Shown one piece after another: positions 28,878 through 34,047 of a DNA stretch of 40,396 nt. The stretch spans positions 1 to 40,396 of the forward strand of contig CAIXIP010000238.1 of the NCBI GenBank assembly GCA_903919535.1. Direction: 5' to 3'. Position 1 is the stretch's first letter; every line of letters starts with the position of its first letter. The notes under the pieces are model-generated. The model searched no databases. It was given only the letters and a program-made list of their open reading frames with translations, and was not told the DNA's origin. Made by a program: the position numbers and the translations under genes. This stretch comes from an uncultured Bacteroidota bacterium. GTDB lineage: Bacteria; Bacteroidota; Bacteroidia; 2-12-FULL-35-15.

Positions 28878-30410
28878 TTACTTAAACACTGGTAATAATT
28901 GCTGATTGGGATCCGAATTAAAAAATGCAATTGCCATTACCCTCCACCTTTTTGCCGCTTCAGCATTTAAAATATCCAATACAGGAAACTCATCTTTTAA
29001 AACAACAGCATCATTCAAATCAATTTTATTTCGTGCGATAAAATCCGTACGCGGTTTTATTTTATTTAACGAAGCATAAAAAAGTAAATTACTTTGATCA
29101 GGATTTGGATTTGTTGAAAGAGCCTCAACATTAAAATTATCTGCTAAAAATGTTTTATAAATTGAACGCATCGACTTCCCTATTTTTCCATCAATATATC
29201 CCATACTATTAACAAAAACAATCCCTTTGTCAGATAGTATTTTTTTTGTTTCCTCCAATGATTCCTGAGTAAACACGTGATTTGGAGGATCTTCACCTTT
29301 AAATGTATCGAAGATAATTACATCATACTTTTTTGTGCAGGTTTTAATATAATGACGTGCATCATCCAAAGTAATATTCACATTATCATTTATATAAAAA
29401 TATTTTTTTGCTACATCAGAAATTCGTTTATCCAACTCACAAACATCAACAGAAAAACCTTTTTCGGTGAGGCAGTGAGCAACACTGCCTCCACCCATAC
29501 CAAGTAATAAAATTTTCGAGTTTTTAGGCAATGAATCAATGTATTCAGAAATCCGATATACATAAGTGAAATACTTTTCCTCCTTCTTTGATTCATCTGC
29601 CAATGAATCAAAGAAGGTTTGAGAAATTCGATTTACAAATAACCAACGACTATGTCCATCAATAACCGCATTTTTATTATAATGGGGGTAATCCAAAACC
29701 ATGATCTGCCCTAGCAGACCTTCGGCATTATATAGAACTTTTATATTACTTGAAAACTTAAATGATGCTGCAGACAAAGCCCATGAACAGAGCAAAAAAA
29801 AACCGACCGCCTTTGCAATTTTTTTTTGTCGAAGTAGAATTACAAAAGGAATAAATCCGAGGGCAATACCTGTAAATATTGATGGATATGTTAAGCCAAA
29901 TGTTGGTATAACATAAAATCCAAATGCAAAAGTTGCAATGATTCCACCCACTGTCGAAATCGCATAAATTGCTCCTGCCGCTTTCCCTGATTCATCAATA
30001 TCACTAGTAATAGTTCTGATGATTATCGGAGAAACCATTCCCATCATAAACACGGGAGGAAATAAAATACAGATGGAAGAAATTATAACTGAAGGAATTA
30101 AACTATGCATACCAATAGCCCACAAAACAATTTTTGAAGTATATGGCATCAACACAGTAAATACTGCGGCTAGCAACAAAACATAAAACAAGACAAATGG
30201 ATTTTTATTTTTATAAGAAAGAACACCGCCAATAAAATACCCTACTGCCAAACCGCCAAGGGTAATTGCTAAAACTGTAGCCCAAACATATAGAGAAGAA
30301 CCGAAATAAGGAGCCAACATTTTTGCACCCAACAATTCAGTTGCCATAACTGAAGCTCCTTCAATAAATGATAACAGGAAATAAAACTTTTTATTTTTCA
30401 GAAAATGCAT
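28878..30410 (-). CDS. Membrane-fused spermidine synthase-like protein
   Basis: 510 residues. N-terminal 220: seven or so membrane helices of the type seen in fused MFS/spermidine-synthase proteins (GASVMATELLGAKMLAPYFG, ATVLAITLGGLAVGYFIGG). C-terminal 270: spermidine-synthase-like Rossmann domain with LLLGMGGGSVAH (301-312), acidic VCELDKR (323-329), DDAR (349-352) and FDTFKGEDPPNHVFT (367-381). The substrate-binding Asp/Tyr pattern of true SpeE is not fully clear, so aminopropyl transfer is uncertain. It is last in the minus-strand block that starts at the TonB-domain gene, 50 nt after its neighbour; a TATCTTTA box (30429-30436) may give it its own promoter. Confidence 0.85.
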   Translation of the reverse strand: MHFLKNKKFYFLLSFIEGASVMATELLGAKMLAPYFGSSLYVWATVLAITLGGLAVGYFIGGVLSYKNKNPFVLFYVLLLAAVFTVLMPYTSKIVLWAIGMHSLIPSVIISSICILFPPVFMMGMVSPIIIRTITSDIDESGKAAGAIYAISTVGGIIATFAFGFYVIPTFGLTYPSIFTGIALGFIPFVILLRQKKIAKAVGFFLLCSWALSAASFKFSSNIKVLYNAEGLLGQIMVLDYPHYNKNAVIDGHSRWLFVNRISQTFFDSLADESKKEEKYFTYVYRISEYIDSLPKNSKILLLGMGGGSVAHCLTEKGFSVDVCELDKRISDVAKKYFYINDNVNITLDDARHYIKTCTKKYDVIIFDTFKGEDPPNHVFTQESLEETKKILSDKGIVFVNSMGYIDGKIGKSMRSIYKTFLADNFNVEALSTNPNPDQSNLLFYASLNKIKPRTDFIARNKIDLNDAVVLKDEFPVLDILNAEAAKRWRVMAIAFFNSDPNQQLLPVFK

Positions 30411-30460: not shown

Positions 30461-31120
30461 TCATTCTTCAAACGGAGTAGAGGAATATATTACAATTAAC
30501 TGACCTAAGGTAAATCCTTTTGATATTTTGTATTTATTTTTCCGTTTAGATGGATGTGTTTTTAATTCCTGTATCAGAGCAGGTTTCCATTTTTGTGAAG
30601 CTAATTTCTCAAATGCTTTCTGAGTTTTTTTATGAGCAACGTCAATTTTGTATTCTTTTTTTTTGTCATCATAGACTAAATACAAGTCCCCCTTTTTTTC
30701 AATAGGGGAAGCATCATCAAATCTTACTTTCCCCTTTTTATTTACAAAAACATTTAAGCGAACTGTCTCCCTCTCTCCCTTTCGCATTTTAATCCCTTTT
30801 GTAAATTCATTACTTTCAAAATAGCTAGTGTAATTGAATGTTTCAACTGAATCAACATTTGGACCAGCAACAATTATTTTTGTTCTATTACTCTCCCCTA
30901 TTGCCATATCACCTGGCCCCCATAAAAGAAAATTACCATAAACAAAAGGTCTATGACCAGCAAAGGAATTAAACACATGAAATTCAACAATTGCCTTTAC
31001 GTAGGTTGAATCGCTGTAAAGGCTTACTTTAATTGTCCCCCTGTGTTGAGCTGTATCTGTTTGTGCAAAAGAAGAAAAAGCAAAAAGAAAAAAAGCAAAA
31101 CAAATTTTATATTTGAACAT
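30461..31120 (-). CDS. Exported protein with RGTIKV motif and degenerate TonB-like C-terminus
   Basis: 219 residues. Signal peptide MFKYKICFAFFLFAFSSFAQ. The mature N-terminus, HRGTIKVSLYSDSTYVKA, parallels RGTIKVKKHVVDTTIYTKV in the TonB-domain protein encoded upstream at 34011. Near the C-terminus AFEKLASQKWKPALIQEL resembles the KWKPA segment of TonB C-terminal domains, but the closing strands differ. The gene lies 36 nt after the putative anti-sigma gene and has a strong Shine-Dalgarno (AAGGAGGG, 6 nt before ATG), rare here. A target or modulator of the sigma module is the inferred role. Confidence 0.7.
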   Translation of the reverse strand: MFKYKICFAFFLFAFSSFAQTDTAQHRGTIKVSLYSDSTYVKAIVEFHVFNSFAGHRPFVYGNFLLWGPGDMAIGESNRTKIIVAGPNVDSVETFNYTSYFESNEFTKGIKMRKGERETVRLNVFVNKKGKVRFDDASPIEKKGDLYLVYDDKKKEYKIDVAHKKTQKAFEKLASQKWKPALIQELKTHPSKRKNKYKISKGFTLGQLIVIYSSTPFEE

Positions 31121-31126
31121 AAATAA

Positions 31127-31134
31127 CCCTCCTT
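31127..31134 (-). promoter_or_regulatory. Strong Shine-Dalgarno AAGGAGGG
   Basis: Minus-strand AAGGAGGG sits 6 nt before the ATG at 31120. It is a near-perfect anti-SD complement in a genome where almost no other start has one, and suggests deliberate boosted translation of this distal operon gene. Confidence 0.7.
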
Positions 31135-31155
31135 GATCACATTTTTATGGAAGAA

Positions 31156-32892
31156 TTAAAAACTTAAAAACGCTTTAAGTTCATCAACGGTTGTAAATTT
31201 TTTATCAACACGATTCATTATAAAATTTTTCGTGCCATCCGAACTTTTGATATCGCTGAATTGTTCTGGTTTCATCCAATATAAAACACCGTTTTCAACA
31301 GTCCACAACATATTTTTTGACTCCGGATTAAAGGAAAATGAATTAATCGGATTTTTCTCGAATGTATACATTGCATTTTTCTTTTTATCGACTAAATAGA
31401 TCTCGTAGCACCAAATGTTCACATTTTTTTCATTTTTCAAATTAGCGGAACAACTCACACCTCTTGGGTAAACACTTGGATTATCGCAATTATAAACACC
31501 AAAACTATTTATTGCAAACAAACGCTTTACCTGCTCCTCGGAAGTCATAGCGTTCATTTGTTCATCCATTTTTCTTTTCAATTCAGCAATATAATCTTCT
31601 TGTTGTTTTTTGAGTACCAACAATTTCCTCTGATATTCATCTTCTATTCTTTTTTCTTGCACCTTCCTCTTGTCAAGAACAACGTTGTATTTAGAAAACT
31701 TTTCCTGAAAATCTTTCATTGCGGTTTCATAATTTTTTCCCTCATAAACGGGGTACACAACAAATTCATATTTTTTTGTTGCTTTTCGTAAAGTCATCAA
31801 ATAGTTCTCGCCTTTTTTTGTTCCCTCTTTTATTGTCGCTTCATCCCAAGTAATTTTATACATGGATTTGTCGAAATTTTTATTCTCATCACCTATTTCA
31901 AATAACAAACCCTTGTATACAGCTAATTCGGGATACCCCTCTGCAGTGAGATCAAAAGTGAATTTTCCATCATGAGCCTGCTCCGGTTTTTTAGGTTCGG
32001 GAGCTACTTTTGGTAATGCGGCAATTTTTAATTCTTTCTCCTTTTGAACTTCCACTTTTTGAATTTCTAGAGCTTTGTATTCTGGAGTTTTTTCAACCTT
32101 ACTAAACTCATCCGCTTCATTAAAATTTTCAACACTGCTATTCACATCTTTATTATATTTTTCCTGCACTTTATCTTTTCCTAAACAGGCCCAATTATTT
32201 TTTGTCGTGTCTAATTTATAAAGATTGTATTCTGTTCCTTTGTAGTTTGAAGCTAATTCAACATTAATTGATTTTCCCGGAGCCATATTCACAGGCTTTC
32301 CATCTTGGTAAGCGAGCATTTCAATCATCCCTGCCGATTCAAATTGATATTTCACTCCTGCGCTATCATAGGTCATAGGAATACCTGAAACAAAAAAATC
32401 AATCGGATCATGAAATTCTCGATATCTTAATTCTACCTCACCTTTTACAGATTTCCCATTGTTGTCAACGAACGCATTTTTAGGAATCCGTAGTTTTGAA
32501 CCTGTTTTAAAATCAAGATTTGCACCTTTTTCAGCAACAACCTTATAGGTTGTATATGTGACATTTACACCGTTTAAAGGCGGGTTAATACAAGGTTTGG
32601 CTTGTTCGCTTTTATAGAATTCCATTAAGGCAATACTATCAGCAGCAGATGAAACTTCTTGCTTGTTAGTTAATGATTGTTGGTTATTAGTTGATGGCTG
32701 TTTATTAAATAATACTGCAGTAGTAACAACAGCTAACGTTGCTACAATCACACTAGATAAGAACCAAGGCTTTTTTAACAACGGCTTAGCACTAATGTTT
32801 GCATGATTTCTTAAAACCGAATCGAAATTTTTGTGCTGAACAATTTCTTCAGAACTAATTTCAGGTCGATCTATATTTACTTTTCTTTTCAT
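31156..32892 (-). CDS. Single-pass membrane protein in anti-sigma position (578 residues)
   Basis: The cytosolic N-terminus (1-40, MKRKVNIDRPEISSEEIVQH...) is followed by one membrane helix (43-63, WFLSSVIVATLAVVTTAVLF) and a long periplasmic region. Residues about 105-240 form a beta domain with GSKLRIPKNAFVDNNGKSVK and VELRYREFHDPIDFF, reminiscent of ZU5-like modules. Residues about 245-310 are Lys/Glu/Pro-rich, 410-460 predict a coiled coil (RIEDEYQRKLLVLKKQQEDY), and the C-terminus is a globular cap. Cys-His zinc anti-sigma motifs are absent. Position directly after the ECF sigma gene (63-nt gap) and topology suggest an anti-sigma factor or sensor. That role is inferred. Confidence 0.65.
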   Translation of the reverse strand: MKRKVNIDRPEISSEEIVQHKNFDSVLRNHANISAKPLLKKPWFLSSVIVATLAVVTTAVLFNKQPSTNNQQSLTNKQEVSSAADSIALMEFYKSEQAKPCINPPLNGVNVTYTTYKVVAEKGANLDFKTGSKLRIPKNAFVDNNGKSVKGEVELRYREFHDPIDFFVSGIPMTYDSAGVKYQFESAGMIEMLAYQDGKPVNMAPGKSINVELASNYKGTEYNLYKLDTTKNNWACLGKDKVQEKYNKDVNSSVENFNEADEFSKVEKTPEYKALEIQKVEVQKEKELKIAALPKVAPEPKKPEQAHDGKFTFDLTAEGYPELAVYKGLLFEIGDENKNFDKSMYKITWDEATIKEGTKKGENYLMTLRKATKKYEFVVYPVYEGKNYETAMKDFQEKFSKYNVVLDKRKVQEKRIEDEYQRKLLVLKKQQEDYIAELKRKMDEQMNAMTSEEQVKRLFAINSFGVYNCDNPSVYPRGVSCSANLKNEKNVNIWCYEIYLVDKKKNAMYTFEKNPINSFSFNPESKNMLWTVENGVLYWMKPEQFSDIKSSDGTKNFIMNRVDKKFTTVDELKAFLSF

Positions 32893-32955
32893 TTGAGTAA
32901 TTGTATATGCTTTATTTTTCTTCTGTTATTATCGCAGCGTAGTTGTTTCACTTTG

Positions 32956-33522
32956 CTACTTTATTATTTTTTTCAATTTATCCAAGATTCTGTATGTTTT
33001 CACTTTTGCATTATTCTCAGTTATCTCTAATATTTCTCCTATTTCTTTAAAGGATCGTTTTTCAAAAAAACGCATTTCAATAAACTGTAATTCATCCTCA
33101 GCTAACTTTTCGGCAATAATCGAAACTATTTTATCATGATATTCTTCAATTTTGCTTTCCTGAATTTCTTCAATTATCACATAGATACTAACCGAATCAA
33201 TATTTACAGTACGCTGAGCCTTTTGTGAACGAAATAAGTTATTAACCTCACTTGAGGCAATCCGATACAGCCAGGAAGCAAAAGGAACTCCTCTAAATTC
33301 ATATTTATGAAGATTTTCCATTGCTTTAACAAAAACTTGCTGGCAGGTATCAAATGCTTGTTCTTTATTATCTATCCTTTGATAAATAAAACGGAATATC
33401 TGTTCATAATACTTGTCATACAGCACAGCAAATTTTGCAGGATTTTTTTTTGCATCTTCCACTACAGTCTGTTCGTCAGCCAGATCGTTTTTTGTTGCAT
33501 GATATTTTGATGTTTGCAGCAT
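32956..33522 (-). CDS. ECF-type RNA polymerase sigma factor
   Basis: 188 residues. Region 2: FAVLYDKYYEQIFRFIYQR (core binding), EQAFDTCQQVFVKAMENLHK and FRGVPFASWLYRIASSEVNN (-10 recognition). Region 4: LAEDELQFIEMRFFEKRSFK, EIGEILEITENNAKVKTYRI helix-turn-helix for -35 recognition. It is a standard sigma70 ECF factor without extra domains. A 31-nt element shared with the TonB-domain gene lies just upstream, as expected of autoregulation. The next gene downstream is a single-pass membrane protein in the usual anti-sigma position. Confidence 0.93.
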   Translation of the reverse strand: MLQTSKYHATKNDLADEQTVVEDAKKNPAKFAVLYDKYYEQIFRFIYQRIDNKEQAFDTCQQVFVKAMENLHKYEFRGVPFASWLYRIASSEVNNLFRSQKAQRTVNIDSVSIYVIIEEIQESKIEEYHDKIVSIIAEKLAEDELQFIEMRFFEKRSFKEIGEILEITENNAKVKTYRILDKLKKIIK

Positions 33523-33543
33523 ATATTTTTACTGTGTTTCGAA

Positions 33544-33574
33544 CTTATAACGTAAAAATTATTAAAAGATACAG
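33544..33574 (-). promoter_or_regulatory. Putative ECF sigma promoter, copy 1 (sigma gene)
   Basis: On the minus strand CTGTATCTTTT, a variable centre, then TTTTACGTTATA. The same element is found at 34017-34047 with identical spacing (25 of 31 positions equal). It ends 21 nt before the sigma ATG, giving a short leader. Neither TTG nor TAnnTTTG is present, so it is not the housekeeping promoter. TGTATC would be the -35 and CGTTATA the -10 element. Confidence 0.65.
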
Positions 33575-33576
33575 AA

Positions 33577-34011
33577 TTATTGCAATGTAAATCTAATAGG
33601 CAAATTAATTTGAACGCGAACTGTTTCTCCTTTATTTCGACCTGGTGTCCATTTGGGCATCATCTTAATTACCTTAAAAGCTTCCAAATCACACTCTGGA
33701 CAACCACTTACACCTTTTAAAATAAGGATATTCGATACCGAACCATCTGTATTTACAGCAAATGTAATAAAGCATGTCCCACTTGAACCTCGCTCGACAG
33801 CAGCTCTTGGATAATTTAAATTCGAAGATATAAATTTTGATATTCCAGCATTTCCATATGAAAACTCAGGCATAACATCCACTTTAGTGTATATAGTAGT
33901 ATCTACGACATGTTTTTTAACTTTTATAGTTCCCCTATTCGAGTTTTTTTGTCCGAAACAAGAAACAGAAGCCGTCAATAACAACAAGACTATAAATTTC
34001 ATTTTTTTCAT
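33577..34011 (-). CDS. TonB C-terminal-domain protein (signal peptide instead of anchor)
   Basis: 144 residues. Signal peptide of about 20 residues (KFIVLLLLTASVSCFGQ), a short RGTIKV-containing linker, then a TonB_C domain (about 55-144): KFISSNLNYPRAAVERGSSG, ITFAVNTDGSVSNILILKG, CDLEAFKVIKMMPKWTPGR and RVQINLPIRF. True TonB needs an uncleaved anchor and ExbBD; here the N-terminus may be cleaved (or a lipoprotein with SC), so it is a TonB-domain accessory rather than an energy transducer. ATG 34011 gives MKKMKF; the ATG at 34002 is an alternative, better suited to the very close promoter. First gene of the block. Confidence 0.85.
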   Translation of the reverse strand: MKKMKFIVLLLLTASVSCFGQKNSNRGTIKVKKHVVDTTIYTKVDVMPEFSYGNAGISKFISSNLNYPRAAVERGSSGTCFITFAVNTDGSVSNILILKGVSGCPECDLEAFKVIKMMPKWTPGRNKGETVRVQINLPIRFTLQ

Positions 34012-34016
34012 TTGAA

Positions 34017-34047
34017 TCTATAACGTAAAAGTATTAAAAAGATACAG
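34017..34047 (-). promoter_or_regulatory. Putative ECF sigma promoter, copy 2 (TonB-domain gene)
   Basis: Minus-strand CTGTATCTTTT and TTTTACGTTATA in the same spacing as the copy at 33544-33574, and both followed two bases later by TTC. It ends only 5 nt before the first ATG (34011), so the message would be almost leaderless unless the ATG at 34002 is used. Confidence 0.65.

Follow-up and report, generated by a model that had tools for sequence, protein, structure and literature searches.

A predicted autoregulated ECF sigma/anti-sigma module with a putative reach into type IX secretion and gliding genes in Bacteroidota

Introduction

Only 6% of the extracytoplasmic function (ECF) sigma factors of Bacteroidetes are encoded next to a recognisable class I anti-sigma factor (PMC7406223), and how most of them are controlled is open. 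A 40,396-nt stretch of contig CAIXIP010000238.1 from an uncultured Bacteroidota bacterium (assembly GCA_903919535.1), hereafter the window, raises this question at a compact reverse-strand locus with genes for a TonB_C protein, an ECF sigma factor, a membrane protein and a second exported protein: which promoters does the sigma factor read, and what holds it in check? From sequence comparisons we propose, at a probability of roughly 0.8, that the locus encodes an autoregulated sigma/anti-sigma module that serves type IX secretion, gliding and the envelope and whose sigma factor reads a two-block promoter element lying upstream of its own gene. The kind of circuit is known; the present version and its controller are unnamed in the libraries searched, and in the literature searched an ECF regulator of type IX secretion is described for Porphyromonas gingivalis only. 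A conserved cytoplasmic tail joined to interchangeable ectodomains, not in Pfam, would be a direct candidate for such a controller, and the module comes with a testable promoter consensus and a defined set of targets; its named carriers are Crocinitomix, Lishizhenia, Taishania and Fluviicola.

A two-block element recurs across the genus and accompanies the sigma gene

The TonB_C gene and the sigma gene are each preceded by one copy of a 31-nt element, and the two copies, CTGTATCTTTTTAATACTTTTACGTTATAGA and CTGTATCTTTTAATAATTTTTACGTTATAAG, share 25 of 31 positions without gaps, ending 7 nt 5' of the TonB_C start codon and 23 nt 5' of the sigma start codon, respectively. In its full form the element reads TGTATCTTTT-N11-CGTTATA, with TGTATC(TTTT) as the predicted -35 and CGTTATA as the predicted -10, and the gap from TGTATC to CGTTATA is 15 nt in both. 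The housekeeping TAnnTTTG box is absent within 100 nt upstream of either gene. The preliminary description of this locus had reported the paired elements, their identity and the missing housekeeping box, all of which hold at these positions and over these 100 nt; the scan pattern that it put forward, TGTATC-N(16)-CGTTATA, has the wrong spacing and misses the window sites because their gap is 15.

Scans with that pattern return 111 sites in the window's own genome versus 129 for the reversed control, and an N15 pattern with two mismatches and without the T-run gives 128 versus 148, no excess in either case. The working scan includes the T-run (TGTATCTTTT-N11-CGTTATA, at most one mismatch, reversed pattern as control) and was applied to genomes of which several are fragmented metagenome assemblies, with gene starts assigned by a simple open reading frame (ORF) rule. 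It finds 8 sites in the own genome, 54 sites versus 1 control in 8 other genomes of the genus and 85 versus 0 in a further 18; the element is therefore far above chance in the genus, with 139 sites versus 1 over the 26 other genomes. Random occurrence across the genome, which the preliminary description had raised against itself, is not what is seen: the sites lie mostly just upstream of genes for exported proteins.

Conservation upstream of sigma orthologues is also borne out. The element precedes the sigma gene in 30 of 30 close orthologue loci examined, with at most one mismatch in 28 of them and usually about 24 nt from the start codon, and in several relatives the TonB_C gene is preceded by the same element. 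TGTATCTTTT also stands near deeper sigma homologues (for example at L118, L122, L127, L130, L131 and L135), and more distant orthologues have the element as TGTATCTTTT or as TGTAAC variants. Genomes that bear an orthologue have 2-11 sites each, and the six genomes in which none was detected have 4, 2, 0, 1, 0 and 3 (one-sided Mann-Whitney p=9e-4, a test that takes the genomes as more independent than their kinship makes them). Among these six, the sites of G008 and G030 fall inside long ORFs and look like chance. This distribution, the conservation and the scarcity of sites where the orthologue is missing (one genome, G014, excepted) support the earlier proposal that the element is the target of the neighbouring sigma factor.

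Predicted targets are mostly exported proteins and include type IX secretion and gliding genes

An ORF comes next at 126 of the 138 distinct sites read, most often 5-60 nt before its ATG. A hydrophobic N-terminus is found in 100 of the 112 non-sigma targets (89%) versus 89 of 177 background ORFs (50%; p=2e-12, by a crude hydrophobic-segment heuristic). The background ORFs come from the sigma neighbourhood in the same clade, where exported proteins are plentiful, and this makes the comparison a conservative one. The targets cluster into OmpA-related proteins including PorE-like ones (16), sigma factors (14), small lipoproteins (14), MORN-repeat proteins (12), GKGGYTG-motif proteins (10, one with a weak match to a type IX secretion system (T9SS) sorting domain), GldK/GldJ-like proteins (10), relatives of the anti-sigma ectodomain together with leucine-rich repeat (LRR) proteins (9), TonB_C proteins with GTIKV (6) and formimidoylglutamases (6).

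Several of these genes point to type IX secretion and gliding. The own-genome target GldN is certain (TIGR03523, E=1.7e-63). In G002 and G027 the element-preceded formimidoylglutamase gene heads porP-gldK-gldL-gldM-gldN, so that this operon is a predicted target in at least two genomes; in the four other formimidoylglutamase genomes only the first gene was read. L268 is GldJ (455.6 bits, just under the 458.2 cut-off), and L250 resembles CHU_0125/PorE, below the cut-offs of those models. The envelope-response regulon proposed in the preliminary description is supported, and the predicted set extends further, to type IX secretion and gliding genes. This reach, together with the short conserved cytoplasmic motif and the assignment of the 219-aa protein described below, goes beyond the earlier account.

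Two kinds of regulon member were observed in addition. In L269 (G004:C69) a MORN-like N-terminal part is followed by a C-terminal part that resembles GldN (TIGR03523 at 7e-23, slightly under the cut-off). Five further members (L165, L181, L195, L219 and L220) are akin to the anti-sigma ectodomain and have no conserved cytoplasmic tail; a decoy or a feedback part is a possible role for them.

The sigma factor is followed by a probable anti-sigma protein of unassigned family

The window sigma factor, of about 190 aa without region 3, belongs to the ECF group (sigma-70 group IV): it matches Sigma70_r2 (4e-12) and Sigma70_r4 (2e-8), with PF04542 and PF04545/PF08281 above cut-off, scores 77.4 bits with TIGR02937 (cut-off 42.9) and has SigW and RpoE as PDB matches. 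Strong orthologues occur in most genomes of the genus, and homologues across Bacteroidota. As its own promoter bears the regulon element, the sequence is that expected of an autoregulated gene. The gene calls of the preliminary description were all confirmed (Table 1): a TonB-domain gene, the sigma gene, an exported protein with RGTIKV and, where an anti-sigma factor would be expected, a membrane protein with a single transmembrane (TM) helix.

Table 1. Features of the predicted module in the window
Feature	Position	Strand	Description
Promoter element copy 1	34019..34046	-	upstream of TonB_C gene; exact match
Promoter element copy 2	33546..33573	-	upstream of sigma gene; exact match
Exported periplasmic protein	33577..34011	-	signal peptide, RGTIKV and TonB_C (PF03544, E=9.7e-16)
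ECF sigma factor	32956..33522	-	regions 2 and 4 only (PF04542, PF04545)
Membrane protein, 578 aa, predicted anti-sigma	31156..32892	-	N-terminus in the cytoplasm, then a single TM helix and a large periplasmic part
Cytoplasmic N-terminal segment, aa 1-42	32767..32892	-	predicted sigma-binding part; 66-sequence alignment
TM helix, aa 43-61	32710..32766	-	hydrophobic segment kept in alignment; helix in model
Exported protein, 219 aa	30461..31120	-	signal peptide, RGTIKV and remote TonB_C-like domain (hhalign); last gene of predicted operon

The 578-aa membrane protein matches no Pfam or NCBIfam family, and a protein in the same position comes next after the sigma gene in nearly all homologous loci read. 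Its N-terminal tail carries a motif of about 35 residues, K-x-N-x-[DN]-R-P-x-x-[ST]-S-x-x-I-x3-[KQ]-[ND]-F-x2-V-L, and among 66 homologues K4 is kept in 94%, R9 in 89%, I17 in 92% and F23 in 92%. In distant lineages the similarity is often limited to about residues 3-63, that is, the tail and the TM helix, while the remainder is exchanged. Because this short cytoplasmic motif is kept in the 66 homologues while the ectodomain is swapped, the protein is probably an anti-sigma factor; a conserved tail with swapped ectodomains is what one would expect if an anti-sigma domain were combined with interchangeable sensors. Searches with Pfam found no FecR or class I anti-sigma domain in the window protein or in six homologues, and an identity as FecR or another class I anti-sigma factor was rejected on that ground.

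The flanking genes of the predicted operon are conserved as well. The TonB_C gene is kept directly upstream of the sigma gene, with up to four tandem copies in L134, and at 14 loci the gene for the 219-aa protein is retained behind the anti-sigma gene. By hhalign the 219-aa protein is a remote relative of the TonB_C family (probability 97.4, E=8.9e-12); a GldM_4th-like assignment was unsupported (hhalign probability 18%), and Foldseek against PDB gave no match at E <= 0.001.

Immediately behind the signal peptide, a GTIKV/I motif was observed in both exported proteins of the window (33910-33935 and 31030-31050) and in L018, L152, L169, L270 and L097:12786-13241; its carriers in the regulon are otherwise dissimilar, being TonB_C, beta-barrel-like and GldM_4th-like exported proteins. 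Beyond the module, a fused major facilitator superfamily (MFS)/spermidine-synthase-like gene (28878-30410) comes next in most close relatives, and no element is seen before it in the window.

Proposed circuit and alternative readings

We infer from this arrangement that the sigma factor binds the element, that the tail binds the sigma factor and that a signal releases it. RNA polymerase carrying the window sigma factor would recognise TGTATC(TTTT) as the -35 and CGTTATA as the -10 at a spacing of 15 nt, and would transcribe the operon for the TonB_C protein, the sigma factor, the membrane protein and the RGTIKV protein, as well as scattered genes for exported and outer-membrane proteins. The type IX secretion and gliding targets would be GldN, GldK/GldJ-like lipoproteins and OmpA proteins of the PorE-like type, joined in some species by the porP-gldKLMN operon. 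Through its tail the 578-aa protein would keep the sigma factor inactive at the membrane and would release it once the periplasmic domain detects that the envelope or the secretion apparatus has changed, and the two TonB_C-like operon proteins may, as a guess, have a periplasmic role in sensing or repair. Autoregulation would amplify sigma and anti-sigma jointly, as in other ECF systems.

Several observations weigh against this circuit. G014 has four good sites, which precede GldK-like, lipoprotein and formimidoylglutamase genes, with no orthologue detected; an assembly gap is perhaps the cause. No listed element precedes the gldKLMN operon of the own genome, where the T9SS target is a second, stand-alone GldN. 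The AlphaFold model of the 578-aa protein places helices at residues 14-21 and 23-32 ahead of the TM helix at low confidence (predicted local distance difference test score about 55 or lower there), and Foldseek of the protein or its ectodomain against PDB returned no match at E <= 0.001. Finally, a paralogous ECF sigma factor, 51% identical to that of the window and with a similar promoter, could share its specificity.

That the paralogue, which is encoded beside a PorP/SprF gene, reads the element instead of the window sigma factor, or equally with it, is in our judgement unlikely. It has TGTATCTTTTATACTTTTACTGCATTATA upstream, and in G010 and G027 the element precedes an LRR gene close to that of the paralogue; its own promoter, however, differs in spacing and in the -10, the element varies least upstream of the window sigma gene itself, and G029, 98% complete, has the paralogue alone and zero elements. 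At L202 (G000:C254) a paralogous ECF sigma gene and a PorP/SprF-like gene are arranged divergently (167-718 and 823-1770).

The proposed module is closest in function to the SigP-PorX/PorY system of P. gingivalis (PMC4800418, PMC8265659), with which it was compared by function and motif rather than by sequence. SigP (PGN_0274) is likewise a Bacteroidota ECF sigma factor; it controls type IX genes, including the porP-K-L-M-N region, through PorX, and here the elements precede such genes, a predicted overlap of the two regulons in T9SS genes. The window sigma factor might thus be the SigP orthologue, with its activity set by PorX/PorY and not by the co-encoded protein, and a PorX-like protein is present in the own genome (a 517-aa CheY-PglZ ORF; PglZ match 8.6e-26). 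We doubt this equation: compared by eye, the motif reported for SigP, C(T)AAA(G/C/T)A(T)A(C)T(A/G)A (PMC4800418), is unlike TGTATCTTTT-N11-CGTTATA, and a text search of both papers (PMC4800418, PMC8265659) finds no mention of an anti-sigma factor for SigP, whereas here a membrane protein with a conserved tail follows the sigma gene in nearly all loci. Because PorX is present in the own genome, a PorX input to the window sigma factor is possible, and PorX and anti-sigma inputs could coexist.

Very improbable, finally, is the reading in which the element lies beside the sigma gene by chance and is either an operator for some other transcription factor or a subtype of the housekeeping promoter: the T-run behind TGTATC might serve in protein binding, but the pair of blocks, spaced as regularly as those of ECF promoters, the short distance to ATG, the constant position at the sigma gene, the dependence on sigma presence and the altered -35 in the Crocinitomicaceae sigma clade all argue otherwise.

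With regard to its controller, the sigma/anti-sigma module most resembles CnrH-CnrY (class II; PMC7406223), in which a short cytoplasmic part of two helices and one TM helix also lies beside an ECF sigma factor, the two helices being a low-confidence prediction in our case. Unlike in CnrY, there is no sequence family match, the ectodomains are much larger and are swapped between lineages, and the predicted targets are the envelope and T9SS rather than metal resistance. FecI/FecR-type systems, common in Bacteroidota, share the ECF sigma factor beside a single-TM protein with a periplasmic part; they differ in that here the FecR domain is missing, the sigma factor scores below the TIGR02985 cut-off (58 versus 126 bits) and the operon has no TonB-dependent receptor. 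The RpoE/RseA-type class I systems share the autoregulated envelope-response logic proposed here, and differ in the class I anti-sigma domain, which Pfam does not find here.

The Crocinitomicaceae branch of the family

The sigma homologues of Crocinitomicaceae form a supported clade (100/99), in which TGTAAC replaces TGTATC. The variant TGTAACNAA-N12/14-GTTATA precedes the sigma gene and gldJ; exact copies are rare in Crocinitomicaceae genomes, where besides these two they precede OmpA-like genes and some others. Since the variant stands before gldJ, the gliding/T9SS link recurs in a separate lineage.

The Crocinitomicaceae anti-sigma ectodomain bears a suggestive resemblance to the C-terminal domain of GldM. 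Of 16 proteins, 7 match GldM_4th, the best at 3.3e-5 and narrowly above the curated cut-off; three PorM/GldM chains rank first in a profile search of PDB (E 0.045-0.09), and hhalign gives E=5e-5 at probability 68. In Lishizhenia and four other loci the GldM_4th-like domain is on a separate downstream gene. Tentatively, and with the odds clearly against it, we suggest that the anti-sigma factors of this family might be secretion-apparatus sensors that report the assembly of the T9SS ring or motor and release the sigma factor for more GldK, GldN and GldJ. If true, type IX secretion would be under feedback control by way of an as yet undescribed class of anti-sigma tail.

A leader hairpin was observed between the sigma promoter and the start codon at L099:9918-9982 and at 16 other Crocinitomicaceae-type loci (alignment A8). 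It has a 7-bp stem and an 8-nt loop, TCTGCAAG; all 7 pairs are changed on both sides, 94% of cells are paired, and the covariation is 0.647 versus 0.236 in shuffles (0/500). The hairpin has no Rfam match. A search with the hairpin model gives one strong match (E <= 3e-7) in each of 11 genomes, with the next best above 0.1, and no strong match in the window's own genome; several of the strong matches coincide with sigma leaders. Sigma genes on the contigs of L108 and of L082, L086 and L143 group within the Crocinitomicaceae-type or window clades; these contigs bear the labels Candidatus Kuenenia stuttgartiensis and Chitinophaga pinensis, and the labels or bins look wrong.

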